Shown here: positions 21,041 through 63,900 of the stretch, in pieces
Numbering within the stretch: the first letter of the stretch is position 1
Layout of the letters: the number at the start of each line of letters is the position of its first letter
Assembly (NCBI GenBank): GCA_032595675.1
Contig: JAVQMD010000001.1
Location: forward strand, 806,001 to 870,000
Reading direction: 5' to 3'
Length of the DNA stretch: 64,000 nucleotides
From: Candidatus Electrothrix rattekaaiensis
Lineage (GTDB): Bacteria; Desulfobacterota; Desulfobulbia; Desulfobulbales; Desulfobulbaceae
Program-made: the position numbers and the translations under genes
Notes under the pieces: model-generated
Told to the model about the DNA's origin: nothing
Databases searched by the model: none
Seen by the model: the letters and a program-made list of their open reading frames with translations, nothing else

Positions 21041-21160
21041 TCTATACAGTAAAGCGTGAACTCCGAGCCGAAAGATCTTCGTCTTTGTTCCAAGGATATG
21101 ATTTGAGGCCGAAAGGGTGCGATTGGAAACGATTTCGCCTCCCGTGTTTGGAAAGGAGTT

Positions 21161-21730
21161 TTACGCTGTCTCTTTCAGTTGTTGCCTACCTGTGCCGAAG
21201 AGTGCAATTCCCATCATTCCTGCTGTGCCATTAAAAATAATATCTCGGATATCAAAGACTCGATTGGGCAGCCACCATTGAATCAGTTCGTCCACACCGC
21301 CAGCAATCCAGACCAGCAGGCAGGGGATGAGCCAAGAAAAAATTTGGCGCAGGAACCGGCTTTTTTCCTGTGTATTTGAAAAGACAGGTGTTGTTTCCAT
21401 GCTCCAACAGATCAACCAACCTGCCAGACCGTAGGTGAGAAAATGGAGGCGTTCTTCCGGGAGGGCTGATATGAGAAAGGCGCAGCAGAGCAGGGTGATG
21501 ATCAGAAGGATTCGGAGAAGAAATTGCTTTCGACTGATCTTGCTGTATCTCCAGAACAGAGCAAGGGGCAGGCTTCCGCCAAAGAGTGTAATGACTGTAG
21601 GGAGCAGGATGGCTGTTGAGCGGAGGTGTTCGACAAGAGGACGGGCAATGCCGAGGGTGGTGTAAATACAGAGGAGGTAAGCGATCGTTAAGGTTATGCG
21701 GAGCTTGGTCGGTATGTTTTTTTCACGCAT
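21161..21730 (-). CDS. VanZ-like membrane protein
   Basis: A 189-residue membrane protein with five to six hydrophobic segments. The C-terminal part has the VanZ-family pattern of an Asp-Glu pair followed by QWWLPNRVFDIRDIIFNGTAG. VanZ is linked to teicoplanin resistance, but most family members have unknown roles. The ATG at 21730 is chosen; a TTG three codons upstream is possible. It ends just after the nap operon in convergent orientation, with a weak inverted repeat between. Confidence 0.8.
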   Translation of the reverse strand: MREKNIPTKLRITLTIAYLLCIYTTLGIARPLVEHLRSTAILLPTVITLFGGSLPLALFWRYSKISRKQFLLRILLIITLLCCAFLISALPEERLHFLTYGLAGWLICWSMETTPVFSNTQEKSRFLRQIFSWLIPCLLVWIAGGVDELIQWWLPNRVFDIRDIIFNGTAGMMGIALFGTGRQQLKETA

Positions 21731-61901: not shown

Positions 61902-61928
61902 CAGGGGCGCGGCACGCCGTGCCCCTTA
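61902..61928. repeat. Dispersed palindromic element, copy 3
   Basis: GGGGCGCGGC / GCCGTGCCCC arms of 10 bp with one G-T type mismatch (61904-61925), related to the copies at 8745 and 21783. It overlaps the stop end of the FAD oxidoreductase gene. Confidence 0.8.
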
Positions 61929-63038
61929 TTCAAAGGCCTGAAAGGTGCGCATGAACCGGCGGTCAATCCAATCCTTGATGAGAAAGGAGACTCGTCCGTT
62001 GAGAACGATGGGCCATTTCTTGAGGATTCCTGTGCCGTTGCCTAGGTTGAAGATAAGCAGGTATTTTCCGCCCGGTTTAAAGGGGAGTAACCGTTCTCCG
62101 GTCAAGGAGGCCATCAGGTTATGCTTGAGAATAGGGTTCTGGCGGACAGCGTAGACGCCCACTTTGTCCAGCGGCGTGTCCTGAAAATCAATACAATCGC
62201 CGCCGCCAAAGATGTGTTCATGTTTTGTGCTGTTCAGATAGCGAGTAACTAGCATGCCGCCCTGCGGCCCGGTGGGAATACCGGAGTCCCTGATCACTCT
62301 GTTCGGTTTGACGCCTACAGCAATAAAGATGAGGTCAAACTCGTGCGTTGCTCCCTCAGTATCGGTTATTTGCCCGGTTTGTATTTGCTGTACCCGGCTG
62401 TTATTGATGACCTTGATGAATCGGGCGGCAAGTGAGGATGAAGCCCGTTGGCGTACGCTTGCCGGATGATGAGGCAGAAGGGAACGTCCGGCAAAGATTG
62501 TAATTGCCGGTGGCTGCATGCCGGGATCCTGACCGAGTCGCCAAATATTACCGGCGACCTCAACAGCTGACGGACCGCCACCGACCACAGCGATCCTGAT
62601 TTTTGTTTTTGCCCCCAGTTCGAGGATCCGCTGCTTTGCCCGGTAGAGTCCTTCAATGGGCTTGACCGGAAAAATATCGTCAAGTGTTCCCTGTACTAAC
62701 TCTTCCGGCACCTGACTTCCGAGATTACAGGAAAGAACATCGTAGGGAATTACCTCACCTGAGCTGAGCCTGACGGTTCGCTCAATAGGGTGGATGCCGA
62801 TCACTTTGGCCTGTTTAAACAGACCGCCTTTTTTTTTCACCAGATCACGGGTGGCAAAGCGGATATCTTCGGGACGATAGGTGCCGCCCAACATTCCCGG
62901 TCCCATGCCGGAATAATAATGATGAGTGTCCGGGCCAATTACCGTGACCTCGAATCCTTTTTCGACAAATTCGTCCAAGTGGGCCAAGGTTAGCATATGG
63001 GCATGGCCACCGCCAGCAATGACTAATTTTTTGCTCAT
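61926..63038 (-). CDS. FAD-dependent oxidoreductase of the type found N-terminal to SelD
   Basis: 370 aa two-dinucleotide-binding-domain flavoprotein. FAD-binding starts at VIAGGGHAHMLTLAHL and the segment THHYYSGMGPGMLGG follows; the NAD(P) fold is at IAVVGGGPSAVEVA and a second FAD motif at HIFGGGDCIDF. The GGGHAH opening and YSGMxPG segment are those of the NDH-like family that is often fused to selenophosphate synthetase (TIGR03169 type) but also stands alone. Relation to NDH-2 and SQR is more distant. The gene is 28 bases downstream of the probable selenocysteine rhodanese gene, same strand, so they form an operon. Confidence 0.82.
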   Translation of the reverse strand: MSKKLVIAGGGHAHMLTLAHLDEFVEKGFEVTVIGPDTHHYYSGMGPGMLGGTYRPEDIRFATRDLVKKKGGLFKQAKVIGIHPIERTVRLSSGEVIPYDVLSCNLGSQVPEELVQGTLDDIFPVKPIEGLYRAKQRILELGAKTKIRIAVVGGGPSAVEVAGNIWRLGQDPGMQPPAITIFAGRSLLPHHPASVRQRASSSLAARFIKVINNSRVQQIQTGQITDTEGATHEFDLIFIAVGVKPNRVIRDSGIPTGPQGGMLVTRYLNSTKHEHIFGGGDCIDFQDTPLDKVGVYAVRQNPILKHNLMASLTGERLLPFKPGGKYLLIFNLGNGTGILKKWPIVLNGRVSFLIKDWIDRRFMRTFQAFE

Positions 63039-63066: not shown

Positions 63067-63900
63067 TTACGCAGTTTCGTCCAACAGGTCGCCCAATAGC
63101 TTTAAATGCGTTCGCTCTTCCTCGGCAATACGCAGGAGCGTTTGCTTTGTTGCATCCTGGGAGGAGTTTTCAGCAGCCCTGATGTAGAGGTCAAGGGCTT
63201 GAGCTTCAATTCCCATTGCCAGAGAAATAACCTCGCTGGCAATGTTAAAATCTGTTGGATAGAGGGCAAGGTACTCTTCAGTTGTCAGGCCGCCTTCCAT
63301 AGACTGAACAGCTGCGTTCCGTTCAAACGCTTCACGACTTAAAGCAGTTACTGTGATTGCTTGGTACTCGAAAAAGAGCCTGTCCTGATGCTTTACTTCA
63401 ATTGCAGAGAGTTGTTTAAAAAGGGCTTTCACTTCTGCTTGCGCAACCCGTTCCTGCATTGAGGTATAGAATTCTTGGAGTCCAGCTTCTAGGGCATAGG
63501 CGACAAGAAGAACTTCAGCAATATCCTCTTTTCCAGAAAACAGGGTCATGCCGGTGTCCTCGGAACCGACAGCGGTGTTGCTGTCCCAGGCTTTAATGCC
63601 GCCCGACATATTGATAACCTGTGAAAAACCTTTCCCAGCAAGCATCTGCGCAGCAACCCGGCTACGCCCTCCGATGGCTCAGTAAACAAAGGTGGGTTTT
63701 GTCGGGTCAAGCTCGCTGCTGCGATCAACCAGTTCCGCTACTGGTATGAGCTGAGCTCCGGGTATATGCCCGCTTTTATATTCACCGGGCTGGCGTACAT
63801 CAATGATATTGTAGTCTTCAACGGAAAGGTCGTTCATGTATTTTTTGGTCTCCGGCGCAGTTAATGATTTGACCGGAGTGAGAAACTGTTTCCAGCGCAT
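63067..63900 (-). CDS. Rhodanese-ferritin-like fusion with in-frame UGA at the catalytic Cys (probable selenoprotein)
   Basis: Read through one TGA, 277 aa: rhodanese domain (about 10-108; NIIDVRQPGEYKSGHIPGAQLI) and ferritin-like/rubrerythrin domain (about 120-277) with paired iron-site motifs (ELGLQEFY-type helix, EVKH and EERTH). TGA at 63681-63679 is codon 74, exactly where the rhodanese active-site loop needs Cys: PTFVY-(TGA)-AIGGRS, giving U-x-x-G-x-R-S. The frame before and after is intact and family-like, with no other lesion. A stem-loop 18 nt downstream meets bacterial SECIS rules. A simple TGC-to-TGA nonsense mutation is the alternative. The start ATG at 63900 has GGTGGGAAT ahead. 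Confidence 0.8.
63648..63667 (-). promoter_or_regulatory. Candidate bacterial SECIS stem-loop
   Basis: In the mRNA, starting 12 nt after UGA, GCGUAGC pairs with GCUGCGC over 7 bp (one G-U), with the 6-nt loop CGGGUU. The loop begins 19 nt after UGA and has G at its second position. Published criteria for bacterial SECIS elements are a short apical loop with G among its first two bases, 16-37 nt from UGA; all are met. Folding energy was not computed. Confidence 0.65.

Follow-up and report, generated by a model that had tools for sequence, protein, structure and literature searches.

A predicted selenocysteine rhodanese fused to a ferritin-like domain, and its flavoprotein neighbour, in Candidatus Electrothrix rattekaaiensis

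In a stretch of 64,000 nucleotides of Candidatus Electrothrix rattekaaiensis (hereafter the window), a reading frame for a rhodanese and a ferritin-like domain is crossed by one TGA codon. The locus raises two questions: whether this TGA ends a protein or is read through as selenocysteine (Sec), and what role a protein with these two domains could play in the cell.

The TGA codon and its counterpart in relatives

The following features of the fusion gene are all located on the minus strand.

63067..63900 (-): full predicted selenoprotein gene, 277 codons plus TAA, a rhodanese / ferritin-like fusion with homologues co-linear over residues ~1-275
63580..63852 (-): rhodanese domain, residues 17-107, from Pfam PF00581 and Foldseek rhodanese matches
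63679..63681 (-): in-frame TGA, codon 74, predicted Sec at the rhodanese catalytic position, UX4R loop UAIGGR
63648..63667 (-): bSECIS-type hairpin GCGTAGC-CGGGTT-GCTGCGC, loop beginning 18 nt past the TGA, -10.2 kcal/mol when folded by itself
63085..63516 (-): ferritin-like (rubrerythrin) domain, residues 129-272, from Pfam PF02915, invariant residues and VIA-align

Translation of 63067-63900 (-) gives a 277-residue frame with exactly one internal stop, the TGA at codon 74. Pfam recognizes in this frame both Rhodanese (PF00581; residues 17-107, 4.7e-20, 72.4 bits versus a cut-off of 22.2) and Rubrerythrin (PF02915; residues 129-272, 1.4e-9, 38.8 bits versus 22.8). The codon opens the active-site loop of the rhodanese, at the place where members of this family have their catalytic Cys. 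This loop has the six residues of the CX4R type (UAIGGR, in U-AIGGRS), and sulfurtransferase activity is predicted from it. The earlier note on this DNA had proposed a rhodanese fused to a ferritin-like domain, an intact gene but for a lone TGA at the catalytic Cys, and a gene that conventional calling would split. All three points hold, the mechanical list of open reading frames containing a 73-aa frame (63679-63900) and a 192-aa frame (63067-63645).

The reference set had two sources: the 30 top-scoring loci found when 257 genomes of the order were searched, and 80 named loci, the best of a second collection. These 110 loci correspond to 101 distinct genes after merging of nine identical pairs. 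The named loci were gathered with the patterns YCA[IV]GGRSR (Cys forms only) and [LIV]DVRQPxEY, and the best-scoring 80 were used. Locus L115, on a 5.1-kb contig of a Neomarinimicrobiota bin, groups with Desulforhopalus in the tree and may have been binned wrongly; the counts include it. The order search gave matches at E <= 1e-25 in 183 of the 257 genomes; the weaker of these matches may concern a rhodanese alone. At the column of codon 74, 61 of the 101 distinct genes have U and the other 40 have C, with no third residue. This 61:40 proportion should not be read as a population ratio, because the first pattern finds Cys forms only and the named loci are the best 80 among the matches listed. 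Forty distant relatives were fetched on purpose: the TGA is at column 74 in all 28 that carry one, and Cys is found there in the 12 others, two of which have other stops. Ordinary in-frame stops beyond the rhodanese loop are present in the Cys-type loci L178 (TAG) and L179 (TAG and TAA), as a result of decay or of sequencing errors. Within the genus, where Cys or UGA in the same column had been suggested as a check, seven genomes have the gene, three with TGA and four with Cys; the eighth genome, which is incomplete, gave no match to the fusion gene in the order search. Since the same column is TGA in 61 of the 101 distinct genes and in 28 of 28 distant carriers, a chance TGA is excluded.

Hairpin, selenocysteine machinery and selection

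A bSECIS is a hairpin located directly after the UGA, with a G in the first two loop bases and the loop 16-37 nt after the UGA; we scored bSECIS-like hairpins with a script of these criteria. The window has the 7-bp stem-loop announced by the earlier note, with G at loop position 2 and at the right distance (GCGUAGC/GCUGCGC, loop CGGGUU, 18 nt after the UGA). A 46-nt fold of the window's own region has z = +0.44, with 122 of 200 shuffles at least as stable, and Rfam finds no SECIS match in this region. Proof from the stability of a single hairpin or from Rfam was thus dropped, and the hairpin counts as evidence through comparison only, because its single-sequence fold is unremarkable and a SECIS match in Rfam is missing.

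The stem cells are paired at 88.6% in the Sec genes, a level reached by 0 of 500 shuffles, versus 61.2% in the Cys genes, a level reached by 398 of 500; the covariation score of the Sec genes is above all 500 shuffles. The stem shows modest covariation, as the protein sequence is conserved at this place, with four both-side changes in the true register versus 11 when the partner is slid by -1 column, a register in which just 9% of stem cells pair. The Ala83 codon closes the hairpin, its third base pairing with the A of the Ser80 codon. It is GCT in 58 of 61 Sec genes versus 9 of 40 Cys genes (Fisher p = 1e-14, kinship ignored), and GCT makes up 14.6% and 13.5%, respectively, of the other Ala codons. 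The best bSECIS-like hairpin has a median of -9.1 kcal/mol in Sec versus -3.95 kcal/mol in Cys genes (p = 2e-11, kinship ignored) and a mean z against synonymous-codon shuffles of -2.7 and -0.6, and a hairpin at <= -6 kcal/mol is found in 59 of 61 Sec versus 12 of 40 Cys genes. These hairpin statistics are uncorrected for relatedness, to which the repeated switching between Sec and Cys is a partial answer. The comparison supports a predicted bSECIS-type hairpin that is specific to the UGA genes.

On a quick tree of the 101 proteins, made with the U/C residue masked, the Sec/Cys state changes at least 16 times, 11 changes being forced by well-supported branches; shuffled labels require 31.6 changes on average. 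Nine Cys genes have a Sec gene as nearest neighbour in this tree and mostly keep the hairpin (median -8.8 kcal/mol, versus -3.6 kcal/mol for the remaining 31; p = 1e-4). Their hairpins are read as probable relics of recent Sec-to-Cys changes. No decay was seen in the TGA genes of the genus, a point on which the Sec reading could have failed: their three pairs give dN/dS values past the TGA of 0.096, 0.095 and 0.079, indicating that the region after the TGA is under purifying selection.

The genome contains all four of selA, selB, selC and selD, as was to be checked: selA (626 bits), selB (375.9 bits), tRNA-Sec (selC, 74.8 bits) and selD (343.8 bits, at C1:1925405), which has its own single in-frame TGA. 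A second SelD-like gene, without TGA, is present beside this Sec-type selD (L138, G000:C1:1741955-1742899, 252.3 bits joined). The presence of selC does not discriminate between genomes with and without TGA, because 211 of the 257 order genomes have it. Among the matches listed, selC was found in 50 of 60 TGA genomes; of the other ten, one is above the selC cut-off on closer look and eight have selB above its cut-off, and the remaining two show a partial selB match below the cut-off (G153) or no clear one (G156).

Two other explanations of the TGA have to be considered. It could be a true stop or a pseudogene scar, in which case the rhodanese would be a fragment of 73 aa and the ferritin-like part a protein of its own, and standard gene calling does give two such frames. 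This is very improbable, given that 61 of 101 genes share the codon and the remaining 40 have Cys, that the region past the TGA is under purifying selection, that the hairpin is UGA-specific and that the Sec machinery is complete; moreover, the 73-aa piece would finish just short of the catalytic residue. A pseudogene or a sequencing error in particular is ruled out by TGA conservation together with dN/dS. Alternatively, the TGA could be read as Trp or Cys through suppression or a changed code. We see hardly any chance of this, as genes without the TGA always have Cys at this column, the genome encodes tRNA-Sec and SelB, and TGA terminates 18 of the 51 window frames open for at least 200 codons (open frames, not all genes). 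A changed genetic code is ruled out by these many terminations. Decoding of codon 74 as Sec is, from sequence comparison, almost certain. The fusion is regarded as a predicted selenoprotein gene family because of its U/C-only column, the Sec-specific hairpin, the at least 16 switches, the relic hairpins and the low dN/dS. The selenocysteine proposed by the earlier note is thereby supported through the U/C column, the UGA-specific hairpin, selA/B/C/D and dN/dS.

The ferritin-like domain and the partner flavoprotein

E138, E168, H171, E202, E232, E262 and H265 are invariant in 40 of 40 distant relatives, down to ~32% identity. They form two ExxH pairs (E168-x-x-H171 and E262-x-x-H265) with further Glu, for which metal binding is predicted, and six of these seven Glu/His fit the rubrerythrin di-iron pattern of two ExxH and two further Glu. 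The seventh, E202, is located in an EGG insertion that separates the second long helix from the third, and may also bind the metal. In an AlphaFold2 model of the fusion protein (mean pLDDT 79.6, pTM 0.77), the N-terminal part is a rhodanese fold according to Foldseek and the C-terminal part a four-helix bundle. VIA-align superposes this bundle on thioferritin 2vzb_B (Z 16.7, 141 residues, rmsd 2.4) and nigerythrin 1yuz_B (Z 16.0, 138 residues), such helical-bundle Z scores informing on fold and not on function. The rubredoxin domain of classical rubrerythrin is absent from the 277 aa by Pfam. The C-terminal half shows a full rubrerythrin-type set of predicted metal-ligand residues.

A second gene follows the fusion gene on the same strand.

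61926..63038 (-): NDH-2-like FAD/NAD(P)H oxidoreductase, 28 nt downstream of the fusion gene and its conserved partner, TIGR03169-like but below cut-off

The best structure matches of this partner are the NADH dehydrogenase-like YjlD (9pxk, E 3.6e-16) and AIFM2/FSP1 (7xpi, 1.1e-14). Its best curated model is TIGR03169 (Nterm_to_SelD), at 256.2 bits for a cut-off of 310, and it is the sole strong TIGR03169-like gene of the genome (255.9 bits, the next having 76.5). Of 96 loci, 79 have the oxidoreductase as the next gene downstream (51 of the 59 Sec loci and 28 of the 37 Cys loci), and the 17 others lack it there. The count covers loci with at least 600 nt downstream, so that L022, L024, L096, L098 and L115 were left out, although L022 does show the partner. 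Estimated gaps between the two genes range from -8 to 269 nt, with a median of 24 and eight of -4. In 20 distant loci, the partner is close upstream in six (nearest-gene gaps of 24 to 383 nt), downstream in one and absent in 13. That the two genes stay together even in the opposite order speaks for a link in function and against common descent as the sole reason. The window partner has two Cys, of which only C282 (GGGDC) is conserved. It has no conserved redox Cys pair, and its conserved stretch HYYSGMGPG, at the place where CoA-disulfide-type reductases presumably have their redox Cys, contains no Cys. Direct dithiol hand-over to the Sec is consequently not supported.

Other neighbours were grouped in single-linkage clusters, with Pfam names for representatives only. 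A cluster of 15 loci is that of a rubrerythrin, an identity taken from its representative, and single peroxiredoxin-like, flavodiiron-like and Fur-family neighbours occur in some loci. These scattered neighbours, few, chosen by eye and with no background count, incline to oxygen or peroxide. In some relatives, genes of the fatty-acid-hydroxylase family adjoin the fusion gene, upstream (L190, L194 and L195) or downstream (L134 and L135; PF04116 confirmed for L190, L194 and L135, by likeness only for L195 and L134); these neighbours point in another direction than peroxide/O2. Near the pair, L090:10028-12169 (+) encodes a VTT-domain membrane protein fused to a disulfide-reductase-type flavoprotein, whose single-linkage cluster has members in 23 of 101 loci (20 of Sec type), mostly downstream on the same strand. 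The window's upstream genes are not among the commonest conserved neighbours in these clusters. Elsewhere in the window, a Moco (molybdenum/tungsten cofactor) riboswitch is located at 21049-21174 (+), with 72.1 bits for a gathering score of 36.

Possible roles of the pair

The flavoprotein, the rhodanese and the di-iron domain could work as one short electron/sulfur relay. The flavoprotein would draw electrons from NAD(P)H, or exchange them with quinone, and the Sec or Cys of the rhodanese loop would hold sulfane sulfur as a selenyl-sulfide or persulfide. The di-iron centre would use the relay for reduction of peroxide or O2, or for oxidation of the bound sulfane sulfur. The protein would then resemble rubrerythrin and serve in detoxification or in the clearing of sulfane sulfur, with a seleno-rhodanese in the place of the rubredoxin module, which would fit sulfide-rich anaerobes exposed to oxygen. 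The Sec, the loop, the ligand residues and the partner come from the sequence; metal binding, the direction of electrons, the substrate and the contact between Sec and iron are what we infer from them. Taken whole, Sec insertion together with an NAD(P)H-flavoprotein-Sec/Cys rhodanese-di-iron relay that would clear sulfane sulfur and/or peroxide/O2 is plausible, although we lean slightly against it. The more specific proposal is rather unlikely: a two-gene redox system in which a dedicated flavoprotein feeds the seleno-rhodanese and this in turn the di-iron site of the same chain, as a selenium-using peroxidase, O2 reductase or persulfide oxidase with a persulfide carrier instead of rubredoxin. 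An unusual redox or sulfur/selenium-transfer enzyme, as the earlier note put it, is compatible with the data.

The pair could also be a seleno-sulfurtransferase without any peroxide role. The rhodanese would take sulfane sulfur from thiosulfate or polysulfide and form, with the flavoprotein, an NAD(P)H-dependent persulfide/polysulfide reductase like the CoA-disulfide-reductase/rhodanese fusions, the ferritin-like domain being structural or an iron store. The six-residue CX4R-type loop is in favour of this, as are the persulfide reductase and persulfide dioxygenase fusions among the best solved structures for the rhodanese part and a partner from the same flavoprotein superfamily as the CoA-disulfide-reductase fusions. 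Nevertheless, the partner's HYYSGMGPG is without Cys, and ferritin-domain ligand positions unchanged in all 40 distant members argue for a working metal site; such an enzyme is doubtful, if a serious candidate. A selenium or sulfur donor pathway, in which the pair would supply SelD with a reduced selenium (or sulfane) compound carried on the Sec/Cys of the rhodanese, is suggested by TIGR03169 being the partner's best curated model, as this domain is N-terminal to SelD. According to passages of two papers, this SelD-linked NADH oxidoreductase is predicted to reduce a selenium compound for SelD (PMC2432076) and is the commonest SelD fusion (PMC4561486). The partner is, however, under the TIGR03169 cut-off, selD is unfused and ~1 Mb away on the same contig, and it is hard to see what a di-iron domain would do there, which makes this pathway improbable. 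Retention of the pair in Sec and Cys loci alike is near neutral on this point, because Cys-type genomes usually have selC.

Distribution and relation to known systems

Among sampled genomes of the phylum with a completeness of at least 90%, 91 of 394 have a match at E <= 1e-35, Sec and Cys forms together, and 34 of 92 among the matches listed have one TGA. Sec carriers include Desulfospira, Desulfobacula, Desulfotignum, Desulfopila and an Olavius symbiont; Cys carriers include Desulfofustis, Desulfomicrobium and Candidatus Scalindua; both forms occur in Desulfosarcina and Desulforhopalus (L130). In Candidatus Scalindua, the Cys form and the partner flavoprotein were found in anammox Planctomycetota bins (L066 and L072). 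Their placement amid Desulfobacterota genes in the tree, with weak support, suggests acquisition of the Cys form by horizontal transfer. The fusion adds an apparently unnamed, widespread family of predicted selenoproteins, the Sec forms of which are split by standard gene calling. Sec and Cys versions within one genus constitute a natural experiment on the gain and loss of selenium at one catalytic position. The combination of a sulfane-sulfur domain with a di-iron domain suggests a connection, open to experiment, between the sulfur chemistry of sulfate reducers and their defence against oxygen.

Rhodanese selenoproteins have been predicted before. Passages of reviews of 2022 and 2026 give three rhodanese entries and forms 1-5 (PMC9312934, PMC13188914), passages of PMC2398784 and PMC5029168 tabulate rhodanese-like sulfurtransferases, and one of PMC8318568 mentions a selenoprotein with a rhodanese-like domain; PMC2702500 has 31 selenoproteins in a supplementary table. 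As far as these passages go, forms 1-5 likewise have Sec in a rhodanese-type domain (PF00581, COG0607 or NF models), and the UxxG forms 2 and 4 have the local motif UAIG in common with the window fusion. The words 'ferritin' and 'rubrerythrin' have 0 occurrences in the main texts of PMC9312934 and PMC13188914, and forms 2 and 4 could include the fusion family under a single-domain name. A search by title and passage, which included PMC10599522, PMC8346489 and PMC3306737 and few subscription papers, found no description of a selenoprotein combining rhodanese with a rubrerythrin or ferritin-like domain. A di-iron fusion of a seleno-rhodanese with a paired reductase did not turn up in the literature searched.

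No NCBIfam model covers the window fusion protein above its cut-off. NF041203, the rhodanese-related (seleno)protein (LYCAU), gives 28.9 bits for a cut-off of 115, and TsoB (NF045694) is matched by 18 of 24 fusion-family members, with a best E of 4.6e-8. The NADH oxidoreductase of TIGR03169 is fused N-terminal to SelD, whereas the window partner is a stand-alone protein whose gene accompanies the rhodanese fusion instead of SelD. The persulfide dioxygenase-rhodanese fusion BpPRF (5ve3) and the NADH persulfide reductase CoADR-rhodanese (3nta, 3icr) likewise couple a rhodanese to a redox enzyme for sulfane sulfur, with 32-35% identity in the rhodanese part. In these two, the rhodanese shares its chain with a different fold, a ferritin-like domain is absent, and the catalytic residue is Cys instead of Sec. 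With rubrerythrin and nigerythrin (PF02915) the fusion shares the four-helix domain and the ExxH pairs, but compared with rubrerythrin it is devoid of rubredoxin and the (seleno)rhodanese domain comes first.
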